The notes beneath the pieces were generated by a model that was not told the DNA's origin, ran no database searches, and saw only the letters and a list, made by a program, of their open reading frames with translations. A stretch of DNA of 64,000 bases from Geobacteraceae bacterium (GTDB taxonomy: Bacteria; Desulfobacterota; Desulfuromonadia; Desulfuromonadales; BM103), in contig JAHEDT010000009.1 of assembly GCA_024641085.1 (NCBI GenBank), positions 1-64,000 of the forward strand, given 5' to 3'. This document shows positions 33,453 through 57,113 of the stretch, piece after piece. Both the position numbers and the translations under genes were made by a program. How positions within the stretch are numbered: the first letter of the stretch is position 1; each line of letters opens with the position of its first letter.

Positions 33453-34367
33453 TCACACAGATTTAGACTTCATGCCGAGCATCTGTCGCAATGCATGCTG
33501 GGCGATACTCGGATTCTCCTTGAGGCGGCGCTTGGAATAGGGCAGCCACGATTTGCCGAAGGGCACGTAGACGCGCAGACGGTGGCCTGCCTTCACCAGG
33601 ATTTCTCGAAGGCCAGGATCGACGCCGAGCAACATCTGGAATTCGTAATCCTCACGTTTCAAACCATATTTCTTGATCAACTGCAGCGACTCGAAGACCA
33701 GCTTTTCATCATGGGTGGCAATCCCGACATAGGCCCCCTTCTCGAACATCTTGTCCAGGCAGCAGACGAAACTGCGGTTGATAATCGCCATATCCTTGTA
33801 GGCAACCTCGCGCGGCTCGTTGTAGATCCCCTTGCAGAGGCGGAAGTGAAGCAGTCCGTCGCTCAAGCTTTCTATATCGTCAAGGGTGCGCCGCAGGTAC
33901 GCCTGCAGCACCACGCCGACGTGCCCGGGGAATTCCTCGCGCAGACGACGGAAGAATTCGAGGGTGTCGTCGGTACAGGGATGGTCTTCCATGTCGATGC
34001 GCACGAAATTGTTCAGGCTGGCCGCGAGGGTAACTATTTCGCGGATATTGGCGAAAGCGAACTCCTTGTCCAGTTCCAGGCCCAACTGGGTCGGCTTGAG
34101 CGACAGGTTGGCGTCGAGCTTTTCCTTGTCGATCCCCTTGAGGATGTCAAAGCACTGCTCCTTGAAATAGGTGGCCTCATCCCGGGTCTTGATAAACTCG
34201 CCAAGGATGTCGATGGTCGCCATCATCCCCTTGCTGTTCAGGTCGCGGGTGACCGAGACAGCGTGCTTCAGCTCTTCACCGGCGATATAGCCCTTGGCAA
34301 AAATGCCGACGATCGGACCCGGCACGTGCATGATCGTTTTTGATACCAGCAGATTAAACAGAGACAT
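33453..34367 (-). CDS. Proline dehydrogenase (FAD, monofunctional)
   Basis: This 304-residue enzyme oxidises L-proline to delta-1-pyrroline-5-carboxylate with FAD, passing electrons to quinone. The barrel motifs are visible: FVRIDMEDH (substrate strand), LHFRLCKGIYNEP, VGIATHDEK and the C-terminal RVYVPFGKSWLPYSKRRLKE with the Arg pair that binds the proline carboxylate. The ATG at 34367 has GAGGACTCT upstream. It is cotranscribed with P5C dehydrogenase from the sigma-54 promoter at 36168-36184, and it lets proline formed from 3-hydroxyproline enter the same route. Confidence 0.9.
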   Translation of the reverse strand: MSLFNLLVSKTIMHVPGPIVGIFAKGYIAGEELKHAVSVTRDLNSKGMMATIDILGEFIKTRDEATYFKEQCFDILKGIDKEKLDANLSLKPTQLGLELDKEFAFANIREIVTLAASLNNFVRIDMEDHPCTDDTLEFFRRLREEFPGHVGVVLQAYLRRTLDDIESLSDGLLHFRLCKGIYNEPREVAYKDMAIINRSFVCCLDKMFEKGAYVGIATHDEKLVFESLQLIKKYGLKREDYEFQMLLGVDPGLREILVKAGHRLRVYVPFGKSWLPYSKRRLKENPSIAQHALRQMLGMKSKSV

Positions 34368-34426
34368 AGAGTCCTCGGCCATGAAGATGAGTTAGTGCGG
34401 GCAGACTGGCTGCCCGCAGTGCTAGA

Positions 34427-36070
<1,644 letters not shown>

Positions 36071-36167: not shown

Positions 36168-36184
36168 AGCAAGCAGGATGCCAA
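36168..36184 (-). promoter_or_regulatory. Sigma-54 promoter for P5C dehydrogenase/proline dehydrogenase
   Basis: On the minus strand TTGGCATCCTGCTTGCT has the GG and GC doublets exactly ten bases apart and matches TTGGCAY-N5-TTGCT. Transcription would start near 36156, giving a leader of about 85 bases. Confidence 0.75.
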
Positions 36185-36400: not shown

Positions 36401-36416
36401 TATGCATAATTGCATG
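36401..36416. promoter_or_regulatory. Activator site TATGC-N6-GCATG
   Basis: TATGC ATAATT GCATG: nine of ten arm positions match TATGC-N6-GCATA. It lies about 220 bases upstream of the sigma-54 promoter. Confidence 0.55.
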
Positions 36417-36472: not shown

Positions 36473-36488
36473 TATGCGAATATGCATT
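36473..36488. promoter_or_regulatory. Activator site TATGC-N6-GCATT
   Basis: TATGC GAATAT GCATT. It is the second copy in this upstream region, 37 bases from the third copy, so the two could bind cooperatively. Confidence 0.55.
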
Positions 36489-36509: not shown

Positions 36510-36525
36510 TATGCGAAAAAGCATT
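36510..36525. promoter_or_regulatory. Activator site TATGC-N6-GCATT
   Basis: TATGC GAAAAA GCATT. It is the third copy, about 330 bases upstream of the sigma-54 promoter. Confidence 0.55.
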
Positions 36526-36911: not shown

Positions 36912-37820
36912 CTAACCACCGACGTTTGCATTCAGGCCAAAACGACAGAAGACTTCTCTGGCCAGCGCCACTTCGGCCGCATCCGGCTCACGGAGTTCCG
37001 CCAGGTCGCGCACCTGGCCGAGCTTCACATCCTTCCCCCGGGCCACGTCATGATAGGGAAGGAGGTTGACCGCTTTTTTCGCCCCGGGCAGTGCAGCGAC
37101 AAATGCCGCGGTGGCTTCGAGGTTGGCACTGTCGTCGTTGACACCGCCGATCAGGGGAATACGAACCTGGATGGCCGCCCCGCTTGCCGCCAACGCCTTG
37201 AGGTTATCCAGGATCAGGCGGTTGTCGACCCCCGTATACCTCTGGTGCCGGTCGGGATCCATCAATTTCAGGTCATACAGGAACAGGTCCGTGGACTTCG
37301 CCACCCTGAGCAGCGTCTCGGTTTTGACGAAACCGGAGGTGTCAACGGCACGGTGGATGTTCTTCCGACCACAGGCCTCGAGGAGCTCCGAGAGGAACTC
37401 CGGCTGCTGCATAGGCTCACCGCCGGAGAAGGTCACACCGCCGCCCGACTGGTCGAAAAACGGTCGCTCCTTTTCGATAATACCGAGCAAGTCGTCAACC
37501 GAGCGGAAGCGGCCGGACATCTCGGTCGCCAGGGTCGGGCAGACGTCTGCACATTGGCCGCACAGGGTGCAGAGACTGCCGTCGGTGATGACCCCTTCAG
37601 AGGTCAGGCGACAGGCATGCACGGGGCAGACCCGGCAGCATTCGCCGCAGCCGATACACTTGGCGGCGGTAAAGAGCTTCTGGATTTTGGGCGAGATGCT
37701 CTCCGGGTTGTGGCACCACAGGCAATGCAGCGGACACCCCTTCAGAAAGATGGTGATGCGGATGCCGGGCCCATCGTTGATGGAGTAGCGCTTGATGTCG
37801 AAAACCAGCCCCTGCGACAT
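36912..37820 (-). CDS. Glycyl-radical-enzyme activase (radical SAM) for HypD
   Basis: This 302-residue radical-SAM protein has the CxxxCxxC motif at Cys29, Cys33 and Cys36 (FLKGCPLHCLWCHNPE). Two additional ferredoxin clusters follow at Cys55-65 (CIGCGECCRVC) and Cys83-93 (CTLCGQCADVC), the arrangement of glycyl-radical activases other than the PFL type. It uses S-adenosylmethionine to abstract hydrogen from the glycine of its partner, here Gly791 of HypD. It starts two bases after the hypD stop, so the pair is coupled. The enzyme and product are oxygen-sensitive, implying anaerobic expression. Confidence 0.92.
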   Translation of the reverse strand: MSQGLVFDIKRYSINDGPGIRITIFLKGCPLHCLWCHNPESISPKIQKLFTAAKCIGCGECCRVCPVHACRLTSEGVITDGSLCTLCGQCADVCPTLATEMSGRFRSVDDLLGIIEKERPFFDQSGGGVTFSGGEPMQQPEFLSELLEACGRKNIHRAVDTSGFVKTETLLRVAKSTDLFLYDLKLMDPDRHQRYTGVDNRLILDNLKALAASGAAIQVRIPLIGGVNDDSANLEATAAFVAALPGAKKAVNLLPYHDVARGKDVKLGQVRDLAELREPDAAEVALAREVFCRFGLNANVGG

Positions 37821-37822
37821 TT

Positions 37823-40273
37823 TTAGAAGGACTCGTTCTCGGTACGCTCGATCACTTCCTGCTGCAGGTCGGCATTCATGTCGTTGAAATAGTCGCTGTA
37901 GCCGGCCATGCGCACCAGCAGGTCCTTGTAATCCTCCGGTGTCTCCTGGGCGGCCTTGAGCGTCGCCGTATCGACAATATTGAACTGGATATGGTGCCCG
38001 CCGAGGGTGAAGTAGCTGCGAATCAGCTGGCCGAGCCGGGCGACGTCCTCGTCGCGCTTGAGCAGGCTCGGCAGAAAGCGCTGGTTGAGCAGGGTGCCGC
38101 CGGACATGGTGTGGTCGAGCTTGGTCAGCGTGCGAATCACCGCCGAGGGGCCGTGCGTGTCGGCGCCATGGGAAGGCGACGTGCCGTCTGAGATCGATTT
38201 TCCGGCCAGGCGACCGTTGGGGGTCGCACCCATCACCTTGCCGAAATAAATGTGGCAGGTGGTGGACAGCATGTTGAGATGGAAAGCCTCCCCCTTGACG
38301 TTCGGCTTGCCGTCAATCGCCGCCAGCAGGTCATGGTAGACCTGCAGGGCGATATCATCGGCATAATCGTCATCGTTGCCGAAAAACGGTGTCTTGTTGA
38401 TAATCGTCTGGCGCAGAAAATCCTCCCCTGCGAAATTGCCGGCAATCGCTTTGAGCAGCCGCTCCATGCTGAAGGACCGGTCCTCGAAGACATGCTTCTT
38501 GAGAGCGGCAAGACTGTCCGTGGTCGTGCCGAGACCGGTGCACTGGATGTAGTTGGTGTTGTAGCGCGGCCCGCCGTCGTAGTAGTCCTTGCCTTTGCTG
38601 ATGCAGTCCTCGATGACCACCGACAGGAACGGCGCCGGGGCGTACTTGGCGAACATGCGGTCAATGTAGTTGCTGACCTGCACCTTGGTGTCGACGATAA
38701 AATTGAGCTGGCGGAGGAAAGCACCATACAGCTCGTCGTAGCTTGTGAAGCCCAGCGGGTCGCCGGTCTCGATCCCGGCAAGTTTGCCGGTCAACGGGTC
38801 GATGCCGTTGTTCAGGGTGATCTCGAGGACTTTCGGCACGTTGAGGTAGCCGGTCAGGACAAAGGCCTCCTTGCCGAAAGCGCCGACTTCGATGCAGCCA
38901 CTGCAGCCGCCCTCCCGGGCGTCCTTGATGGACTTGCCCTGGCGCAGCAATTCGACGACGTACACATCCGGGTTGAACACCGACGGATAGCCGTGGCCCT
39001 GGCGGATCACCTTGCAGGCGGCATTGAGGAAACGATCGGGGGTCTTGCTGCTGACATGCACCGAGCTGCCGGGCTGCAGGATATGCAGCTCCTCGATCAC
39101 CTCGAGCATGATGTAGGACACCTCGCTCACGCCATCCTTACCGTCGCCGGTGATCCCGCCGATGTTGATGTTGGTGAAGTCGTTGTAGGTGCCGCTCTCG
39201 CGGGCCGTGATGCCGACCTTGGGGGGCGCAGGGTGGTTGTTGACCTTGACCCAGAAACAGCAGAGCAGTTCCTTGGCCTGGTCCCGGGTCAGGGCGCCGG
39301 CAGCGATATCCGCTGCGTAGAAGGGAGCCAGGTGCTGGTCGAAATGACCCGGGTTCATGGCGTCCCAGCCATTCAGCTCGGTGATGGTGCCGAGATGGAC
39401 GAACCAGTACATCTGGATCGCCTCGTGGAAGCTGCTCGGGGCGTGGGCCGGCACCCGGCGACAGACCTCGGCGATCTTCCGCAGTTCGGCTGAACGCTGC
39501 GGGTTGATCGCGCCAGCCGCCATGGTCTCGGCCAGCTCGGCGTGGCGTTCGGCGAACAGGATCACGGCATCGCAGGAGATGTCCATCGCCTTGAGCTGTT
39601 CGGCCTTGTCGGTCGCTTCCGGGTCATTGAGATAGTCGAGGGCGGCCAGTTCGGCAGCAATCTGGAGCTTGAAATCGAGCATCCCCCTGCGATAAATCTG
39701 GCCGTCCAGAGCCGTGTGCCCCGGGGCGCGCTGCTCCATGAACTCGGTGAACAGGCCGGCCTCGTAAGCAGCCTGCCATTCTCCGGGGACATGGGCGAAG
39801 ATCCGTTCGCGCACCGTCCGCCCCTGCCAGTAGGGGATCACCTCACGGGCATAGGTGGCGATATCCGCCTCGCTGATGGTGTAGCGCTGCTGTTCGCGGG
39901 TGTTGAGGACGTGGAAGTCCTCCACGCTGTGGCAGGTCAGTTCCGGGAAGGTCGGCACCGCCTTGGGGCGGGGGCCGCGCTCGCCGACGATCAGTTCATC
40001 GTCGCCGAGATAGAGGGTCTTCTTCTGACAGTGGTCGAGGAAGTTCAGTGCCCGCAGCACCGGAATCGAGTACTTGCCGTAATTTTCCCGGTAAAATGCG
40101 GTTTCGTGCAGGGCCCGCTCGATCGACAGGCTCGGTTCGACCTCAACGCTCAACTTGCGCAGGCGCTGGACGCGTTCGTTCATTCCCGGCCCGATGGCGT
40201 CAGGCTTTTCAGGATAGAAGTTGCCTTCGGCGGCGGCCTTGCGTTGCGGGACGATTTTCAGATCTCTTTCCAT
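37823..40273 (-). CDS. hypD: trans-4-hydroxy-L-proline dehydratase (glycyl radical enzyme)
   Basis: This 816-residue glycyl radical enzyme dehydrates trans-4-hydroxy-L-proline to P5C. The catalytic Cys460-x-Glu462 is in EGGCSGCIEVGAFGKEAF, and Gly791 in RMAGYSDYF carries the radical. The region around the active site (TGYLNVPKVLEITLNNG) and the C-terminal ERTE-x-SF match the HypD subgroup. Cys460 and Gly791 lie 26 positions later than the C. difficile numbering I recall (Cys434, Gly765), the amount of the N-terminal extension. It is not the hydrogenase-maturation HypD. The ribosome site is weak (AAGGG, about 11 bases away). It has its own sigma-54 promoter. Confidence 0.93.
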   Translation of the reverse strand: MERDLKIVPQRKAAAEGNFYPEKPDAIGPGMNERVQRLRKLSVEVEPSLSIERALHETAFYRENYGKYSIPVLRALNFLDHCQKKTLYLGDDELIVGERGPRPKAVPTFPELTCHSVEDFHVLNTREQQRYTISEADIATYAREVIPYWQGRTVRERIFAHVPGEWQAAYEAGLFTEFMEQRAPGHTALDGQIYRRGMLDFKLQIAAELAALDYLNDPEATDKAEQLKAMDISCDAVILFAERHAELAETMAAGAINPQRSAELRKIAEVCRRVPAHAPSSFHEAIQMYWFVHLGTITELNGWDAMNPGHFDQHLAPFYAADIAAGALTRDQAKELLCCFWVKVNNHPAPPKVGITARESGTYNDFTNINIGGITGDGKDGVSEVSYIMLEVIEELHILQPGSSVHVSSKTPDRFLNAACKVIRQGHGYPSVFNPDVYVVELLRQGKSIKDAREGGCSGCIEVGAFGKEAFVLTGYLNVPKVLEITLNNGIDPLTGKLAGIETGDPLGFTSYDELYGAFLRQLNFIVDTKVQVSNYIDRMFAKYAPAPFLSVVIEDCISKGKDYYDGGPRYNTNYIQCTGLGTTTDSLAALKKHVFEDRSFSMERLLKAIAGNFAGEDFLRQTIINKTPFFGNDDDYADDIALQVYHDLLAAIDGKPNVKGEAFHLNMLSTTCHIYFGKVMGATPNGRLAGKSISDGTSPSHGADTHGPSAVIRTLTKLDHTMSGGTLLNQRFLPSLLKRDEDVARLGQLIRSYFTLGGHHIQFNIVDTATLKAAQETPEDYKDLLVRMAGYSDYFNDMNADLQQEVIERTENESF

Positions 40274-40419: not shown

Positions 40420-40436
40420 AGCAAGAAAAGTACCAA
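40420..40436 (-). promoter_or_regulatory. Sigma-54 promoter for hypD
   Basis: On the minus strand TTGGTACTTTTCTTGCT has GG and GC ten bases apart; one base (T for C) departs from TTGGCAC. The start would be near 40408, with a leader of about 135 bases. Confidence 0.65.
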
Positions 40437-40528
40437 GAGCCCGGCCAGATTGGAACGGGGCAAGAGCCTGAAATGGAGACGTTTTTTTTACAAAGCCCCG
40501 TGCACGGGAGGGGAGTGGCGGCACATTT

Positions 40529-40544
40529 TATTCATTAATGAATG
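40529..40544. promoter_or_regulatory. Candidate activator site TATTC-N6-GAATG upstream of hypD
   Basis: TATTC ATTAAT GAATG is palindromic over 14 bases and has the same N6 spacing as the TATGC-N6-GCATA sites, with T/A in place of G/C. It lies about 100 bases upstream of the sigma-54 promoter. Confidence 0.45.
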
Positions 40545-40596
40545 TTTTATTCATTTTAACATAAAACAACTAAAAAACAGGCGACGGACGTTGGCT

Positions 40597-40950: not shown

Positions 40951-42696
40951 TCAGGCATCTTCGCGACCTGTCAAAAGGATACCGTATTTCTGTAGCTTTC
41001 GGGCAACCGTCGGCTGACTCATGTCAAGCGCCGCAGCAATCTCATGCTGCTTACGCCAGCGCCTGCCTGCCTGGAGGAGCACTGCCCGCTCGACACTTTC
41101 CACGATCTGGTGCATCGACATGGTCCCGGGCCAGGGTCCGGCAAGGCCGGACTCGACACCGCCAACCCCCAGGACGACGGCCTCCGGCAGGTCGCTGACG
41201 TCGATCAGATCTGCGTCGCTCATCACGACCAGGCGCTCGCAGACGTTCATAAGCTCTCGTACATTTCCCGGGAACGGGTAACCTGCCAGGTGATCCAAAG
41301 CGGCGCGCGTCAGGCGCCGGGTGCATCCGGAACGCTCGGCAAACTGATCGACATAGGCACGAATCAGTGGCACCAGGCATTCCTTGCGCTCCCGCAAGGC
41401 GGGGACCCGCAACGGAATGACACTGAGGCGATAGAAAAGATCAACGCGAAACAGCCCTTCTTGCACCAGTTGCTCCAGGTCGCGGTTGGTGGCGGCCAGG
41501 ATCCGCACGTCCACCTTGCGGCTCCGGGTGCCCCCCAGGCGCATGACCTGGCTGTCTTCCATGAACCGCAGGAGCTTGACCTGTGAGGCCAGCGGCAGCT
41601 CGGCAACCTCGTCCAGGAAGAGGGTGCCTCCATCAGCCAGTTCGAGGTGCCCCGGCTTGCTGGTGGCCGCCCCGGTAAACGCACCCTTTTCATATCCGAA
41701 CAGCTCGGCCTCAACCAGGGTTTCGGGGATGGCTCCGCAATTGATCTTGATGATCGGCAGGCCGGCGCGCCTGGAATTCTGATGAATCAGTTCGGCGATC
41801 AGCCCCTTTCCTACTCCGGACTCACCGAGAATCAGCACTGTTGAATCAACCTTGCTGAGCTTGAGCGCCTGCCTGAGGGCTCTGACCATGACAGGGCTTC
41901 TGGCAATCACGGGTTGGGCGGAGAGGCGCTCCTGCTGGAGTTCCATGAACTGGTCGCGGAACTGGTCACCGATCGCCTGCTGCTCTTGCAGCTGCCGCTG
42001 CAGGCGGTCCATCTCGGTAATGTCATGTTCGCTGACCACCACGCGGATCAAGGCACCGTCGTCATCGAAAACCGGCGTTGCCGTAGAGATCAGCTTGAGC
42101 CCATAACGATTCTCCTGCAGCAGACTGACGACTTCACGCTTTTTGATCGATTCGAGGGCCGCCGAAGGTAGGATGACATACCCCTCCCGAGCCACATCGA
42201 GGTAGTCCCGACCGATCACTTTTACTGGCGGGACATGATTGATTCTGGCAGAGGCTGGATTCATATGCAGGATACGACCCGTGCCGTCACAGACGAACAA
42301 CCCGTCGGAAGAGGACTCGATGATGGCGTCCAATTCACGAGTCAATTGCTGTACCGGGCCGTTCTCAAGCAGAATGGCCAGGGCCCCGACCACAGTCCCC
42401 TCGCGGAAGCAGGTCCCGGCCCAGGCCATGCAACCGATCGCAGCATCATCCAGCTCGAGCCTCAACGACGGCGAACCGGAGTCAAGCACGTCGTCAAGCA
42501 GGGTCTTAAGCCTTGGCAAGGCGCTGCTCAAGCCGGCAGAACCAGCATCGTCCAGCAAACGCGCCACCAGTCCCCAGGCATACAGCACGGCCCCGCCGGC
42601 ATCGACAACGACACCTCCCGGGCCTGCTGATCCGAGGACGTCAAGCGGCGACAGCCCTGCCCTTGCCATACCGGGCACATCCGACGATCTTTCCAT
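40951..42696 (-). CDS. Sigma-54-dependent activator, PAS-AAA-TyrR-type HTH (activator 1)
   Basis: This 581-residue enhancer-binding protein has an N-terminal sensor region, a PAS domain at about 120-235 (SSDGLFVCDGTGRILHMNPA, VVVSEHDITEMDRLQ) and an AAA+ domain with Walker A GESGVGKG. The sigma-54 contact loop GAFTGA is in YEKGAFTGAATS, and Walker B is LFLDEVAELP. The C-terminal helix-turn-helix reads IAAALDMSQPTVARKLQKY, of TyrR type. No receiver domain is present, so the PAS likely senses a ligand. It is in the operon with the 3-hydroxyproline enzymes and paralogous to the protein at 55218-56945. GGAGGGA precedes the ATG. Confidence 0.9.
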   Translation of the reverse strand: MERSSDVPGMARAGLSPLDVLGSAGPGGVVVDAGGAVLYAWGLVARLLDDAGSAGLSSALPRLKTLLDDVLDSGSPSLRLELDDAAIGCMAWAGTCFREGTVVGALAILLENGPVQQLTRELDAIIESSSDGLFVCDGTGRILHMNPASARINHVPPVKVIGRDYLDVAREGYVILPSAALESIKKREVVSLLQENRYGLKLISTATPVFDDDGALIRVVVSEHDITEMDRLQRQLQEQQAIGDQFRDQFMELQQERLSAQPVIARSPVMVRALRQALKLSKVDSTVLILGESGVGKGLIAELIHQNSRRAGLPIIKINCGAIPETLVEAELFGYEKGAFTGAATSKPGHLELADGGTLFLDEVAELPLASQVKLLRFMEDSQVMRLGGTRSRKVDVRILAATNRDLEQLVQEGLFRVDLFYRLSVIPLRVPALRERKECLVPLIRAYVDQFAERSGCTRRLTRAALDHLAGYPFPGNVRELMNVCERLVVMSDADLIDVSDLPEAVVLGVGGVESGLAGPWPGTMSMHQIVESVERAVLLQAGRRWRKQHEIAAALDMSQPTVARKLQKYGILLTGREDA

Positions 42697-42713: not shown

Positions 42714-43739
42714 TCAGCGCATCACGAAGCCATCCTTCAGCGGGTCATCCGGATCGATCAGGAATTCGTGCCGACCGGTGATGAAGGCACTGCCCGCCAC
42801 TTCCGGAATGATGGCCCGGTGCGGGCCGAACATGGTCTCTGCGGACACGGTGCAGCGAAATGCACTGCCGATAATGCTTTCGATGACGAGGGTCTCGCCG
42901 ACCCCGACTTCACCGCGGGCATGATGAATCGCCAGACGTCCACTGACGCCGGTCCCGGTCGGGCTGCGGTCGACCTCGCCTTCGGCGAAGATGCAGACAT
43001 TGCTCGAATGGGCCCCCTCCCCCCTCGGTTCACCGATAAAGATCGTTCCGTACAAAAAGCTCAAGTCTTCCTCGAAGGGGTGCGGAATCGTACGGCTGTC
43101 CATAACGGCGCGCTTGATCGCCTTCCCCTTGTCGATCAGTGGGTGCAGATTCTCCGGAGACACCGTGAGCCCGACTTCGGCGGCCCTGACGTAGGCATAG
43201 AAACCACCACCGAAGGCCAGATCGTAGCGCACCTCACCAAGGCCGGGGACATCCACAACCTGGTCCAGACTGAGCACGAAGGAAGGGACGTTGAGAAACG
43301 AGACACTCGCCACCCTGCCGTCCCGGACCTGGGCTCGTGAGGTGACCAGCCCGGCCGGCGTATCGATGCGCAAAGTCGTCTGTGGGGCCTGCATGGTCAC
43401 CATGCCGGTCTCCAGGGCCACCGTCGTGACCCCGATAATGCCGTGCCCGCACATGGTGCTGAACCCTTCGTTGTGCATGAAGAGCACGCCGAAATCGGCT
43501 CCCGGCGTGATCGGCGGGGTCACCAGGCAACCGTACATATCGGCATGTCCGCGCGGCTCCAGCATCAGTGCGCTACGCAGGTGATCGTAGTGCTCCTTGA
43601 CGAAGCGGCGCCGGGCCAGGATCGTTGTCCCCGGTAGTTCGGGGAAGCCCGAGGTGATCACCCGGAAGGGCTCGCCGGCGGTGTGGGCATCAATGGTGGT
43701 TATTTTCTGCCAGTGCTGCGGCGCTTGCCAATCTTTCAT
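42714..43739 (-). CDS. trans-3-hydroxy-L-proline dehydratase (proline-racemase fold)
   Basis: This 341-residue protein of the proline racemase superfamily has its first catalytic Cys97 in TMCGHGIIG. The second position is Thr261 in DRSPTGTGVSGR, where racemases and 4-hydroxyproline epimerases have Cys. A Cys/Thr pair is the established marker of trans-3-hydroxy-L-proline dehydratase, which gives delta-1-pyrroline-2-carboxylate. The neighbouring pyrroline-2-carboxylate reductase-like gene agrees. The start at MKDWQAPQ is chosen for family length; a GGAGG lies nine bases upstream. It stands 25 bases after the small AcnX subunit gene. Confidence 0.9.
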   Translation of the reverse strand: MKDWQAPQHWQKITTIDAHTAGEPFRVITSGFPELPGTTILARRRFVKEHYDHLRSALMLEPRGHADMYGCLVTPPITPGADFGVLFMHNEGFSTMCGHGIIGVTTVALETGMVTMQAPQTTLRIDTPAGLVTSRAQVRDGRVASVSFLNVPSFVLSLDQVVDVPGLGEVRYDLAFGGGFYAYVRAAEVGLTVSPENLHPLIDKGKAIKRAVMDSRTIPHPFEEDLSFLYGTIFIGEPRGEGAHSSNVCIFAEGEVDRSPTGTGVSGRLAIHHARGEVGVGETLVIESIIGSAFRCTVSAETMFGPHRAIIPEVAGSAFITGRHEFLIDPDDPLKDGFVMR

Positions 43740-43764
43740 CTCCAGCAACCTCCAGACAAACTCC

Positions 43765-44205
43765 TCACGCTTTATCAACAAAATTTTCAGAGACGACAAC
43801 CCGGCCGAGGGTTGCATTGACCTGCGCGTGCTGCCCCGTCTTCAGGGTATCGAAAAGGGTCTTTTCCATTGTGACGACCGGAATCTCCAGGCCGTAGAAG
43901 TGCTTGCAGACGATCGGACCGGTCGCCAGGATCGGCTCGGTCTCGATATTGATCATGGCCGCCGGAGCCTTGTTGACCCGCGCCAGTTCCAGGATCATGA
44001 GTGAGCCGGTACTTGAGCCCTTGCCGTAAGGAAAAACCAGGATTTTACCGGCGACCGACTGTTTGAACAGTTCATGCCGCGGATCGTTGATCAGCCCGGT
44101 TGCCGGATCGACTCCGCCCCAGAAGCTAATCGACTGAGACGTGGCAATCACCTCGCCCGAGGCAACCCCGGCAACGATGCAGCGGGCGGCTAGTTCTTGC
44201 GCCAT
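43765..44205 (-). CDS. Aconitase X small subunit (swivelling domain)
   Basis: This 146-residue protein is the separate swivelling domain of aconitase X: LAARCIVAGVASGEVIATSQ, then SFWGGVDPATGLINDPRH and GSSTGSLMILELA. With the large subunit it forms a hydro-lyase. In bacteria with hydroxyproline genes this enzyme is cis-3-hydroxy-L-proline dehydratase. The chosen ATG (44205) has GGAGGCGGG upstream and overlaps the large-subunit gene by 16 bases, implying coupled translation. Confidence 0.85.
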   Translation of the reverse strand: MAQELAARCIVAGVASGEVIATSQSISFWGGVDPATGLINDPRHELFKQSVAGKILVFPYGKGSSTGSLMILELARVNKAPAAMINIETEPILATGPIVCKHFYGLEIPVVTMEKTLFDTLKTGQHAQVNATLGRVVVSENFVDKA

Positions 44206-45449
44206 AGTCCCGCCTCCCTGCAGACCCTGCCGTTCACCGCCGTGTCGACACACTCGCGCAGGCTGCCATAGACCACCCTGAGCCCGGTCTGCGAATAGCA
44301 GTAATTGGCAAATTTCGCCGAATTTGACATCGCCGCACGAAAATCCCAGCTCTGCACGGGGTACTGCAGGGGGCAGCCATCGGTAAAAACTTTGACCCCG
44401 GCGGAGTGCGCTAACTCAAGGACGCCATGCTCCTCGACCTCGGCATATACGGCCCGACTGGTGAAGACCCAGCAGGAGATCGACGCATGAACCGGCCGAC
44501 CCTGCAGTAACTCGGTCAGGGCAATAAACTCAGTGGCGGAGAAGTGCGGGCAGCCGAGGGCGACCAGGTCAGGTCGCTCGACCGTGCCGTCCGAGAGACG
44601 CTCCTCGGCGTCGGCAACCATCCGGGGAGTCAGAACCAAAGGGGTTGGGCCCCCCCCGGGGAAGCACACCTCGAGAGAAGGTGCTTCCGGCGTGATGCCG
44701 AGGAGATGGAAGAGGCCGACGGCGCCGGACGAAGCCGCGGAAGCGCTGAAGGCCTTGAGATCATCCATGGTGACCGCTTTCGGTATCCCCTCAAGGGCGC
44801 CGATTCGGCCCGCGGCAATTTCTCCAAAAACATAACCGAGGAGCGGATAGATTGCGCTGTTAGCAAACATCTCCGGGGTAAATCCCTCCAGGGTCACCAG
44901 GATCTCAGCCCTGCGGTTTTCACTCAGGTGCAGACCAAAGCGGGGGACCCGGCCTATGATACCGGCACAGACATCGACGAGATCGGCATAACGGTTGGTG
45001 CGCGCGCCGATCACTGAATTGGCGAAAGCGATGGCGTTGGACTCCCCCCAGGCAATCTGTTCGCCAAACCCTGGAATCATCCCCTGCTGGTAGGGGGCGC
45101 AGGTCCAGGTTGGCGTTGCGCCCATTTTCAGGTAGGCCCGTTCCAGCCGCCGGCTTTTCTCCTCGAGCTCGGCAGGAACCCGCAGTTCGCGACAGCGCCT
45201 TAAATCGACGGCACTCGGGTTGAGCTGAGTCGGAACCGCGAAGCGGCCGCCCAGATCCGCCAGACGCTCAACGAACTCGACCCCGGCGTCGACCATGTAG
45301 AGGGTCATATCGATGTGCACCTGGCTGACCGGCATCATCTCATCGGCAGCGAAGATCTCCCCCATATCACAGAGGATCTGCATGGCGAGCCGCGCCGCTT
45401 CCCCCTCGCTTCCGGAGAGAATGTCCTGGTCATGGTCAGTCAAGCGCAC
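44190..45449 (-). CDS. Aconitase X catalytic (large) subunit
   Basis: This 419-residue protein of the AcnX family has YLKMGATPTWTCAPYQQG, AWGESNAIAFANSVIGARTN and LGCPHFSATEFIAL, where conserved cysteines of the AcnX active site lie. The cis-3-hydroxy-L-proline dehydratase activity of bacterial AcnX gives delta-1-pyrroline-2-carboxylate, the same product as the next dehydratase. Separate large and small subunits make this a type II AcnX. The start is a GTG with GAGGGCGG upstream, 11 bases after the OCD gene stop. An alternative archaeal role (phosphomevalonate dehydratase) is excluded only by context. Confidence 0.85.
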   Translation of the reverse strand: MRLTDHDQDILSGSEGEAARLAMQILCDMGEIFAADEMMPVSQVHIDMTLYMVDAGVEFVERLADLGGRFAVPTQLNPSAVDLRRCRELRVPAELEEKSRRLERAYLKMGATPTWTCAPYQQGMIPGFGEQIAWGESNAIAFANSVIGARTNRYADLVDVCAGIIGRVPRFGLHLSENRRAEILVTLEGFTPEMFANSAIYPLLGYVFGEIAAGRIGALEGIPKAVTMDDLKAFSASAASSGAVGLFHLLGITPEAPSLEVCFPGGGPTPLVLTPRMVADAEERLSDGTVERPDLVALGCPHFSATEFIALTELLQGRPVHASISCWVFTSRAVYAEVEEHGVLELAHSAGVKVFTDGCPLQYPVQSWDFRAAMSNSAKFANYCYSQTGLRVVYGSLRECVDTAVNGRVCREAGLWRKN

Positions 45450-53554: not shown

Positions 53555-54670
53555 TTACTTGTGCAGCTGCCACTTCTGGTCTTTGACATTCAGGACCACG
53601 AAGTTGCTGCGAGCCAGGGTCAGCTTGTCCGTAAATGAAATCGGGCCAGCAATCCCCTGGTAGTCTTTGGTTGCCTTGAGAGCTTTGGCAACCGCGGCCT
53701 TGTCGAAAGAGCCCGCACGCTTGACGGCATCGGCAAACAGCATCATGCCGTCGTAGGAAAGCGTGGAGTAGGGACCCGGGGCGACGTTGTACTTTTTCTT
53801 GAAGTTTTCTGCGAAGCCCTTGGCGGCCGGCAGGTAGTCGACGATCGGGTTGGAGAAACAGTAGACGCCCTCAGCGGCGCGGCCAGCAATTTCGATCAGC
53901 TTGGGCGAGTTGGAGCCGTCGCCGATAGCGATCTTGCCGCGATAGCCTGCCTGGCGGAGCTGCTTGATGAGCAGGGCCCCTTCAGCGTAATAGGCAGTCC
54001 AGAAGATGGCATCGGGGTTCTTGGCCTTGAGGGTCGTTACCAGGGAGGAGAAATCCTGCTCCCCCTTGTTGACCACTTCATAGGCAACGACCTTGTTGCC
54101 TTTCGCTTCCCACTTGGAGCGGGAAATCTTGGCCAGGTCTTCGGAGTAGGCCTCGCCCATGTGAACAATGGCGACGCTCTTCACACCGAGAGACTCGAAC
54201 AGGCCAACGGCCGTATCGGCCTGAGCGTCACCGGTCGAGTTGATCATGAAGCCGATGCCGGGGTTGGCACCGACCAGGGCGGTGGAGTTGGAGGCGGTAA
54301 TCACAAACGGAACCTTGGCTTCGCCGTAAAGAGCCAGAGTCGGAAGGGTCGCGCTCGAGCAGTACCCGCCGACGACGCCCACAACACCTTCGGAAATCAG
54401 TTTGCTGGCAGCAGCAACCGCCTGCTGGGGATCGCAGGCATCGTCACCGGTCGTGGTGACAATCGTCTTGCCAAGCAACCCGCCGGCAGCGTTGATTTCG
54501 TCAGCAGCAAGTTTGATGGCGCTTTCCATGTCCTTGCCGTCAGTGGCGGTTCCGCCGGTGGTAGGAATCATGATCCCCACCTTGACTTCACCAGCGGCGA
54601 GACCCGTACCCGCGGCAAGGACTACCGCGAGAGCAGCCGAGACCATCATCAATAAACTTTTTTTGAACAT
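53555..54670 (-). CDS. livK: Periplasmic substrate-binding protein LivK-like
   Basis: This 371-residue protein has a signal peptide (MFKKSLLMMVSAALAVVLAA). The type I periplasmic-binding fold begins EVKVGIMIPTTGGTATDGKD and has GVVGGYCSSATLP and FVITASNSTA, which bind the amino-acid backbone. It captures the substrate for LivHMGF. GGAG six bases before the ATG fixes the start. Upstream lies a sigma-54 promoter. The ligand is inferred to be a hydroxyproline or proline because the operon degrades these. Confidence 0.9.
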   Translation of the reverse strand: MFKKSLLMMVSAALAVVLAAGTGLAAGEVKVGIMIPTTGGTATDGKDMESAIKLAADEINAAGGLLGKTIVTTTGDDACDPQQAVAAASKLISEGVVGVVGGYCSSATLPTLALYGEAKVPFVITASNSTALVGANPGIGFMINSTGDAQADTAVGLFESLGVKSVAIVHMGEAYSEDLAKISRSKWEAKGNKVVAYEVVNKGEQDFSSLVTTLKAKNPDAIFWTAYYAEGALLIKQLRQAGYRGKIAIGDGSNSPKLIEIAGRAAEGVYCFSNPIVDYLPAAKGFAENFKKKYNVAPGPYSTLSYDGMMLFADAVKRAGSFDKAAVAKALKATKDYQGIAGPISFTDKLTLARSNFVVLNVKDQKWQLHK

Positions 54671-54953
54671 GTGCATCTCCTTTTTCTTCTGTGTCAATCG
54701 GTTAGTAATCTAAAACTACACCACAGGGCAACATCGTCCAAACATTGTTACACGCTACACCATCTTTTCAATACCTACGCTCTAATATTTTTATCGGCGA
54801 GGCCTCGAAGATTCCAGGCAGCACCCCTAAACGTTCGACTGAAACGGTCGCGCCCACCCCCCATATCAGCCCTATATTGGAACCCGGGGTCTTTTCGGGA
54901 AAAGCGCAACTCTCATCCGAGGCGGTGGGATAAAGAAATCTGAGTAAAAGCAT

Positions 54954-54970
54954 AGCAAAAGAAATGCCAA
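54954..54970 (-). promoter_or_regulatory. Sigma-54 promoter for the liv/3-hydroxyproline operon
   Basis: On the minus strand TTGGCATTTCTTTTGCT has GG and GC ten bases apart, close to the sigma-54 consensus. The start would be near 54943, giving a leader of about 270 bases. Confidence 0.8.
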
Positions 54971-55157: not shown

Positions 55158-55173
55158 TATGCAAAAACGCATA
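55158..55173. promoter_or_regulatory. Activator site TATGC-N6-GCATA upstream of livK
   Basis: TATGC AAAAAC GCATA is an exact palindrome with an N6 spacer, about 190 bases upstream of the sigma-54 promoter. It matches the site in front of the activator gene at 56995-57010. Confidence 0.6.
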
Positions 55174-55217: not shown

Positions 55218-56945
55218 TCACACCAGATCATAACGCTTGAGCTTTCTGGCGATCGTTGACTGGTTCACCCCCAGGGCCTCGGCAATGCTGGCCTGGCTGC
55301 GATAACGCTCCCGCGCGCGACTCAGCAACGTGCGTTCAACCGATTCGAGTGCCTGCTGGAGAGAAATCGTTTCCGGCCAGTCGAGGTCCTCCGGCATTCC
55401 GGCTCTGGTCCGACCGACGACCTGTGACGGCAGGTCTGAGATATCGACGACCTCAGTCTCGGACATGACCACCAGACGCTCACAGATATTCATTAATTCA
55501 CGGACATTGCCGGGATATGAATAGCCGGCCAGAGCATCAAGCGCAGCGCGCGTCAGACGTTTCTGCGTGTTGTTGATCTTTGCGAAATGATCCATGTAGT
55601 GCCTGATCAGCGGCACCAGGCAATCCCTGCGCTCACGCACGGCTGGGACATGGATCGGGATCACGTTCAGACGATAATAGAGGTCGAGCCGAAAGGTTCC
55701 GCGTTCGACCATTTCCTCGAGATCGCGGTGGGTGGCAGCCAAGACGCGCACATCGACTTTGCGCTGCTCGGTGCCACCGAGCCTGGTGATGCGGCCGTCT
55801 TCGAGAAAACGCAGCAGCTTGACCTGGGCCGACAGCGGCAGTTCGGCAATTTCGTCCAGGAACAGCACCCCTTCGTTGGCCAATTCGAACTGCCCCGGCT
55901 TGCCGCCTGTGCTGGCACCGGTGAAGGCCCCTTTCTCGTAACCGAACAGCTCCGCCTCAATCAGCGATTCGGGAATCGCTCCGCAATTGATCTTGATCAG
56001 CGGCCGGTCGGCGCGTCGGGAATTATGATGAATCATATCGGCGATCACCCCCTTGCCGACCCCCGACTCGCCAAGGATCAGCACGGAGGAATCGGCCGAG
56101 GCGACTTTGGTTGCCTGACGGAGCGCCTTGATCATATTGGGGCTTCGAGCGATGATGCGGCGGGACTCCAACTCCAGTTGCTGCATTTCGAGCATCTGGT
56201 GGCGAAACTGATCCTTGATCGCCTCCTGGTTCTCAAGTTCCCTCTGCAGTCGATCTATCTCGGTAATGTCCCGCTCGCTGACGACAACGCGGATAAGCTC
56301 GCCATTCTGATCGAAAACCGGCGTGGCCACAGAAATCAGCTTCCCGCCCTTGGGGAGGGTCTGCAACTGGCTGATGCACTTCTTCTGCAGGCTGGCTTCA
56401 AGGGCGGCGGACCGGTCGATAAAGCCCTCCGCAATCAGGTCTCGCATGTTACGGCCAACCATTTCGGAGGCAGGCCGCTGATGGATCCGTTCAGATGCCG
56501 GATTGACCCTGATCACGTTCGCGTCTGCATCGCAGACGAAGAGGCCGTCCGACGAAGAATCGATGATGGCATGTAATTCAAGGGTCAAGGCCTCGAAATC
56601 GACGACGCGCCGATCTGAGCCTGGCGAGTCCGGCGCCGGCGGCAGCAGGCAGAGGGTCAGTTTGTGACCATCCCCGCCCCTGACCGAACTCAGTAAGGCC
56701 AGGTAGGGAGCCCCTGTGCCACGGGTAATCGTCACGGGTGGTTCCGGCGGCGCACTACGGCGGAAATTCCCCACCGCCTCGGCCAGTTTGGGCAATGTCT
56801 CAGCGAGCATGATCCCCTCGCGAGCATTCAGCTGGTTCTCTGCAGCGGGGTTGGTAAAGACAATACGCCCCTGCTCGTTACAGACAAGCAATGGCACCGA
56901 CAGCGCCTGCAGAAAATCTGGTGCGAGGACCCGTAATTCTTCCAT
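55218..56945 (-). CDS. Sigma-54-dependent activator, PAS-AAA-TyrR-type HTH (activator 2)
   Basis: This is a protein of about 575 residues with an N-terminal PAS-like region (LSVPLLVCNEQGRIVFTNPA), a second PAS at about 125-235 (SSDGLFVCDADANVIRVNPA) and an AAA+ domain with GESGVGKG, GAFTGA and LFLDEIAELP. The TyrR-like helix-turn-helix reads IAEALGVNQSTIARKLKRY. It is a close paralogue of the protein at 40951-42696. The ATG at 56945 has GGAGG five bases upstream; the ATG at 56957 is an alternative. A TATGC-N6-GCATA site 50 bases upstream suggests autoregulation. Confidence 0.9.
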   Translation of the reverse strand: MEELRVLAPDFLQALSVPLLVCNEQGRIVFTNPAAENQLNAREGIMLAETLPKLAEAVGNFRRSAPPEPPVTITRGTGAPYLALLSSVRGGDGHKLTLCLLPPAPDSPGSDRRVVDFEALTLELHAIIDSSSDGLFVCDADANVIRVNPASERIHQRPASEMVGRNMRDLIAEGFIDRSAALEASLQKKCISQLQTLPKGGKLISVATPVFDQNGELIRVVVSERDITEIDRLQRELENQEAIKDQFRHQMLEMQQLELESRRIIARSPNMIKALRQATKVASADSSVLILGESGVGKGVIADMIHHNSRRADRPLIKINCGAIPESLIEAELFGYEKGAFTGASTGGKPGQFELANEGVLFLDEIAELPLSAQVKLLRFLEDGRITRLGGTEQRKVDVRVLAATHRDLEEMVERGTFRLDLYYRLNVIPIHVPAVRERRDCLVPLIRHYMDHFAKINNTQKRLTRAALDALAGYSYPGNVRELMNICERLVVMSETEVVDISDLPSQVVGRTRAGMPEDLDWPETISLQQALESVERTLLSRARERYRSQASIAEALGVNQSTIARKLKRYDLV

Positions 56946-56994
56946 CTGCGCCTCCATAACCCTCTAACTCCCATTCGCCGGCATTCGGGCATTT

Positions 56995-57010
56995 TATGCA
57001 TATGAGCATA
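56995..57010. promoter_or_regulatory. Activator site TATGC-N6-GCATA upstream of activator 2
   Basis: TATGC ATATGA GCATA lies within the longer palindrome TTTTATGC-N6-GCATAAAA (56992-57013), 50 bases before the activator start. A further TATGC half-site follows at 57014. Confidence 0.6.
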
Positions 57011-57113
57011 AAATATGCAATACAGAATTAACCGCTGGCAGAGTTCCAGGCGAAGAGCAAGGGCCCGCCCCTGTTGACCGGGTTAAAGAGCCTCCCGTCT
57101 TCAATCAAAAAAA

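Follow-up and report, generated by a model that had tools for sequence, protein, structure and literature searches.

The closest described relative of the two regulators considered here is PrdR (NF041552), the sigma-54 activator of the Clostridiales proline reductase, which is the best NCBIfam match of both activator A (343.4 bits) and activator B (401.1 bits). They resemble PrdR in serving amino-acid catabolism and in combining a sigma-54 promoter with upstream sites, but both fall far under its cut-off of 795, and their target genes differ. The DNA-binding end of B resembles those of TyrR/PhhR and Fis (by HTH_50 and by the nearest solved sequences), proteins that have other targets; A scores just short of the HTH_50 cut-off. 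TyrR boxes, TGTAAA-N6-TTTACA, are unlike the TATNC-N6-GNATA operators described below. The same is true of the PrdR motif, which in the accessible part of its description consists of TGT and ACA around a 10–12-bp spacer (PMC6615313, Nie 2019). In the portion of PMC5343134 available to us, HypR of Sinorhizobium and other Proteobacteria is described as a negative regulator of hydroxyproline and proline use; it is tied to the same substrates as A and B, but belongs to the GntR family, and that portion makes no mention of sigma-54. The sigma-54 regulome of Desulfovibrio (PMC4641369) and the RpoN regulon of Geobacter (PMC2725144) concern related lineages rich in sigma-54 activators and upstream motifs, and in the accessible parts of both papers no activator of proline or hydroxyproline genes is described; the strings TATGC and TATTC are absent from the main text of the former. 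Neither the regulator pair nor its helix–operator code appeared in the available parts of PMC4641369, PMC6615313, PMC2725144, PMC12316311, PMC4784862, PMC11407668 and PMC5343134, and we found no regulator of hypD in this bacterial group in the open-access full-text literature, a body that leaves out most subscription journals and bioRxiv.

A and B are encoded in the window, by which we mean the whole 64-kb stretch of Geobacteraceae DNA that was analysed, among the following genes.

55218 to 56957, minus strand: activator B, with the same architecture as A and helix NQSTIARKL (Sigma54_activat; placed by the tree)
53555 to 54697, minus strand: first gene of a liv-type transporter operon, the substrate-binding protein (Pfam Peripla_BP_6)
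42714 to 43817, minus strand: trans-3-hydroxyproline dehydratase-like gene (Pro_racemase; best NCBIfam match NF045511, 404.8 bits, below its cut-off of 540)
40951 to 42696, minus strand: activator A, PAS, sigma-54 AAA+ and Fis-type HTH regions, helix SQPTVARKL (Sigma54_activat; A clade)
40935 to 40597, minus strand: small tRNA-binding-domain protein, between A and hypD
37823 to 40273, minus strand: hypD, trans-4-hydroxy-L-proline dehydratase, a glycyl radical enzyme (NF043068, 1167.8 bits, cut-off 1100)
36912 to 37820, minus strand: HypD-activating radical SAM enzyme (best NCBIfam match NF043069, 344 bits, below its cut-off of 425; TIGR02494 above cut-off)
34427 to 36070, minus strand: P5C (glutamate semialdehyde) dehydrogenase (TIGR01236, 781.5 bits, cut-off 613.6)
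33453 to 34382, minus strand: proline dehydrogenase (Pfam Pro_dh)

The A/B pair scored 222 and 233 bits with Sigma54_activat (PF00158), and both translations contain the GAFTGA loop; with HTH_50 (PF18024, gathering cut-off 27), B scored 47.7 bits and A 26.9. Read along the minus strand, B is followed by the liv-type transporter, what we take from their translations to be an SDR and an aldo-keto reductase, a serine dehydratase, an ornithine cyclodeaminase-like gene, an aconitase-X pair, the trans-3-hydroxyproline dehydratase-like gene, A, the small gene, hypD, the activase, P5C dehydrogenase and proline dehydrogenase. The aconitase-X-type cis-3-hydroxyproline dehydratase appears to be split into two overlapping frames, a small and a large part (43765–45449).

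From comparison of sequences, we consider it quite likely that A switches on the hypD operon through a pair of TATTC-type repeats, that B reads TATGC-type repeats, and that the two form a cascade from B through A to hypD. The comparison draws on site conservation, co-occurrence with A, helix–site co-variation and gene order; the parts of this reading that we infer are the binding of the operators, DNA looping, co-transcription, the cascade itself and the PAS ligands.

Consistent with the preliminary description, which had assigned hypD its own sigma-54 promoter with a variant operator, we found both elements between hypD and the small tRNA-binding-domain gene.

40420 to 40435, minus strand: hypD sigma-54 (−24/−12) promoter, TGGTACTTTTCTTGCT, an exact TGGYAC-N5-TTGCW
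40529 to 40544, minus strand: predicted promoter-proximal operator of hypD, CATTC-ATTAAT-GAATA, conserved and of the TATTC-N6-GAATA class
40548 to 40563, minus strand: predicted distal, degraded operator of hypD, TATGT-TAAAAT-GAATA, 19 bp from the proximal one

The promoter, read from 40435 to 40420, is the sole exact TGGYAC-N5-TTGCW match in the 64 kb, and the proximal operator, which reads TATTC-ATTAAT-GAATG on the plus strand and whose start precedes the −24 element by 109 bp, is the sole exact TATTC-N6-GAATR. The region thus has the −24/−12 element and, in its conserved paired repeats, a predicted upstream activator site. A second TATTC half-site noted earlier is indeed present, but it forms the left arm of the degraded repeat TATTCATTTTAACATA at 40548–40563 rather than a separate half-site, because paired repeats lie 19 bp apart at hypD and 18–20 bp apart at B genes. 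A perfect 12-bp palindrome, CCCGTGCACGGG, lies at 40497–40508 between the operator and the promoter.

Counted in the window, the sigma-54 motif with at most one mismatch had 4 matches (3.7 expected) and TATTC-N6-GAATR likewise 4 (5.1 expected), so neither motif is significant from one sequence; it is the comparison with relatives, not the window alone, that lifts the predicted hypD sites above chance. We searched 136 genomes of the order with activator A and ran the hypD model on the same 136, which gave matches in 74 genomes, 44 of them above the cut-off, and took the stretches around A, B and hypD from genomes with strong matches. The 500 bp upstream were scanned for TATNC-N6-GNATA, ignoring the fourth base of each arm and allowing one mismatch, with the expectation taken from dinucleotide shuffles. 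Upstream of hypD, 35 of 47 regions contained a site (7.1 expected), and sites were also found in 46 of 47 P5C dehydrogenase regions (5.4 expected) and in all five regions of the liv substrate-binding protein (0.65 expected); the one P5C dehydrogenase region of the 47 without a site belongs to a second gene copy, in G048, beside a paralogue with a TQAT helix.

The hypD promoter accompanied A. All 25 genomes of the order with A carried it, as against 8 of the 22 without A (Fisher p 9e-7, with the relatedness of the genomes ignored), and promoter and site occurred together in 24/25 and 8/22, respectively; in G086, A and the promoter are present, and no site was found at up to one mismatch. Loss of the site upstream of hypD orthologues, which the preliminary description had weighed against its own reading, was looked for; the genomes with A did not show it. 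Among hypD loci from named records (80 taken, 78 scorable, two being too short upstream), 16 of 25 near loci and 0 of 53 far loci carried the promoter. Malonomonas rubra DSM 5091 and Pelovirga terrestris have both promoter and site, and the M. rubra genome contains operators of both types, TATTC and TATGC; in the same scan no hypD sigma-54 promoter was found in Desulfuromusa kysingii DSM 7343. The geometry also recurred. The two repeats upstream of hypD are exactly 19 bp apart in 21 of 27 cases, and pairs at 18–20 bp occur at B genes of 23 of 26 NQST-type regulators in genomes with A, 23 of 37 in genomes without A, and 6 of 6 of SQPT type. The proximal repeat lies 108–113 bp from the −24 element in 24 of 32 hypD promoters, 99–102 bp in five, 95 bp in one and 89 bp in two, and a test for helical phasing of the operator did not reveal any, the phase score being nearly flat across periods of 9.5–11.5 bp.

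The second class of site, TATGC-N6-GCATA, was read from the window sequence; TGTTC-N6-GAACA had been tried as the other operator and dropped, its matches being not above chance.

57014 to 57029, minus strand: second, weaker predicted operator upstream of B, with AATTC/TATGC arms, 19 bp from the first
56995 to 57010, minus strand: predicted B-type operator upstream of B, TATGCTCATATGCATA, TATGC-N6-GCATA
55158 to 55173, minus strand: predicted B-type operator upstream of the liv operon, TATGCGTTTTTGCATA, TATGC-N6-GCATA
54954 to 54969, minus strand: predicted sigma-54 promoter of the liv operon, TGGCATTTCTTTTGCT, a motif match
36510 to 36525, minus strand: predicted B-type operator upstream of P5C dehydrogenase, AATGCTTTTTCGCATA, one mismatch
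36473 to 36488, minus strand: predicted B-type operator upstream of P5C dehydrogenase, AATGCATATTCGCATA, one mismatch
36401 to 36416, minus strand: predicted B-type operator upstream of P5C dehydrogenase, CATGCAATTATGCATA, one mismatch
36168 to 36183, minus strand: predicted sigma-54 promoter of P5C dehydrogenase, TGGCATCCTGCTTGCT, a motif match

The difference between the two classes of site follows the recognition helix. The helix is SQPTVARK in A orthologues of nearly all genomes and mostly NQST(I/V)ARK in B orthologues. Under an NQST-type B, P5C dehydrogenase promoters carry an ATGC-N6-GCAT site, with ATGC in both arms, in 41 of 41 cases (among them G045 and G057, where NQST was read from a partial B gene), whereas under an SQPT-type B they carry an exact TATTC-N6-GAATA in 5 of 5 (G091, G093, G094, G105 and G130). 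G089 has a TATTC/TATTC repeat at −42 as well as its ATGC-type site. In G093 and G094, where B has the SQPT helix and a TATTC operator, the helix of A reads SQSS and the arms of the hypD sites are partly TATCC-like. Two more exact TATTC-N6-GAATA repeats with similar flanks occur in G093, near position 1500 of L319 and L324, and are possibly extra targets of its SQPT-type B. An exact TATTC-N6-GAATA was also seen once in each of six searched genomes (L310, L312, L314, L315, L321 and L323), at the start of a large frame beginning MAYS(I/F)ANN, presumably rpoB; given this position the repeat is probably coding, and we dropped it as an operator and regard it as a trap for motif scans.

We extended the comparison of helices with cognate sites, proposed earlier as a check, to the phylum, where 64 of 395 genomes gave a close match and 20 loci were taken. 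Phylum loci with N- or D-type helices and a site mostly had (T/G/A/C)ATGC arms, and several N- or D-type loci among the 20 had no site. An SQAT helix in G062 pairs with GATTC-N6-GAATC, and an SHSS helix in G410 has two GGTTC-N6-GAACC repeats nearby. For the TQAT helix the base is A by majority in three of four cases, and clean only in G048 and G052; in these genomes (contigs C20 and C76, respectively) this third paralogue type, with helix TQATIARK, has AATAC-N6-GTATT repeats near it. No site was found for six regulators with helix NQSTITRK in this tabulation. In 82 of the 83 callable rows of the wider family, operator position 4 is G where the helix has N or D, and T where it has S. The count takes one site call per regulator and uses 83 of 116 rows; the others lacked a site call, had arms that tied or carried a T-type helix, and row G004, in which hypD starts at a contig edge, was left out.

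On a tree built without the HTH, helix type changes only four times, with two independent pairs on well-supported branches, leaving 2–4 independent helix–site contrasts; because the genomes are related and the helix changes so few, a sign test cannot reach significance. SQPT-type B proteins fall in two places, those of G091–G094 and G105 next to the A clade and the one from G130 next to the NQST B clade (support 92 and 89). The switch may therefore have arisen more than once or been reversed. The co-variation in these sequences is thus strong, with few independent events. It suggests that the sister activators are distinguished mainly by one helix residue and one site base, and it supports the earlier proposal that the variant operator belongs to the other paralogue: the site follows that paralogue and the helix difference named there, SQPTVARKL against NQSTIARKL. 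A wider reading, in which paralogues within a genome may be insulated by different helix types, is one that we offer tentatively and, taken as a whole, lean slightly against; it would cover even G093 and G094, in which the helices of A and B differ.

Among solved sequences, those nearest to the DNA-binding end of B belong to Fis-like proteins and to a TyrR homologue. The alignment places the first residue of the helix on a Fis asparagine that we take to be Asn84. According to the available part of a crystallographic study of Fis–DNA complexes, the ±4 base pair is contacted by Asn84, which clashes with the methyl group of a thymine at that position, although most strong Fis sites show little change in affinity when Asn84 is substituted (PMC4784862). 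As the register of the 15-bp Fis core against the 16-bp repeat is approximate, the structure is consistent with the code rather than proof of it.

A single activator could give a similar picture if the hypD operator were a degenerate B site, B controlled everything and the T/G difference were drift at a weaker site. The hypD sites are less pure than the B sites: in the window's family the distal arm (n = 16) has G in 9, A in 4, T in 2 and C in 1, and the proximal arm has T in 16/16. Mixed TATTC/TATGC arms are also found upstream of B, at the weaker site of the pair, where the distal left arm has T in 15 of 23 cases with A in the genome and in 15 of 23 without. Such asymmetry at hypD, and mixed arms at B genes regardless of A, make the helix–operator code a preference rather than an absolute rule. 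G014, moreover, has B, and on its contig C50 the hypD promoter and paired operator are kept with no A gene between hypD and the neighbouring operon. Drift at a B site nevertheless seems unlikely. Family f8 reverses the tendency of the arms (T in 26/33 left and 17/33 right), with T in both arms at 13 of 33 hypD sites; an SQPT-type B carries the exact TATTC repeat at every one of its P5C dehydrogenase promoters; and the hypD promoter tracks A rather than B alone, as 14 of the 22 genomes without A lack it and 13 of these 14 have a B-type regulator.

The eight genomes with the promoter and without A raise another possibility, namely that hypD is controlled by a different activator, of the same helix class and with its gene elsewhere, the adjoining A being incidental. 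Four of them are incomplete (G053, G054, G058 and G060; 63–84%), and G046 has a TQAT-type paralogue near hypD; the remaining three, G014, G062 and G087, are near-complete and keep both the sigma-54 promoter and the operator of hypD even though no A was found in them, and G062 encodes its SQAT-type paralogue elsewhere. We regard this as very unlikely given that no genome with A lacked the promoter, and that hypD retains promoter and site even where A is distant or on another contig (G089, G088, G093 and G094), which argues that adjacency alone does not make the link between A and hypD. Least probable of all is an AND gate in which mixed A:B dimers read one TATGC-type and one TATTC-type arm, as the G/T hybrid arms at 9 of 16 hypD sites in the window's family might suggest, since hybrid arms are equally common at B's promoter with and without A and so need no A, hypD sites of f8 often have T in both arms, and the proximal site of the window has CATTC/TATTC arms and is not a hybrid.

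Gene order points to how activation of hypD by A would be connected to B. The 3-hydroxyproline genes of the window are flanked on one side by the B-type liv promoter and on the other by A, which follows the trans-3-hydroxyproline dehydratase-like gene by a 17-bp gap. In most relatives, the block led by B-type sites consists of P5C dehydrogenase, proline dehydrogenase, the liv transporter, in some cases an ORF, and A; 3-hydroxyproline genes were not found in the block of most relatives. A follows its upstream gene by a short gap in most of 30 A loci and by about 300 bp in four, that gene being a liv gene, the ORF after the liv genes or, in the window's genus, a 3-hydroxyproline gene. Among 32 regions upstream of A, a TATGC-type site with one mismatch was found only in G074, and no TATTC-type site with fewer than two mismatches was found. 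The position of A close behind the upstream gene, with nearly no site of its own, fits co-transcription from a B-type promoter and hence a cascade, which its place at the end of the B-led block makes probable. The preliminary description had expected separate control of a trans-4 and a 3-hydroxy branch; since the block order puts A at the end of the B-led genes, the two are probably nested, from B to A to hypD, rather than separate.

In the cascade that we favour, B would read TATGC-N6-GCATA at its own gene, at the genes of proline and P5C oxidation and at the liv transporter, and would thereby raise uptake, P5C oxidation or the 3-hydroxyproline genes, and A. A would then bind as paired dimers to the two adjacent repeats of the TATTC-N6-GAATA class about 110 bp upstream and reach the hypD sigma-54 promoter by DNA looping. 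The ligands of the PAS regions would probably be hydroxyproline or proline, or their products.

The kind of promoter found at hypD is well known; it is the co-variation of helix and site that merits specialist attention. If the reading is true, the glycyl radical hydroxyproline pathway in Desulfuromonadales-type bacteria would gain an activator and an operator, and the pair would serve as a natural experiment in the way sigma-54 activators divide their targets after duplication. The prediction that it offers comes down to one residue and one base.
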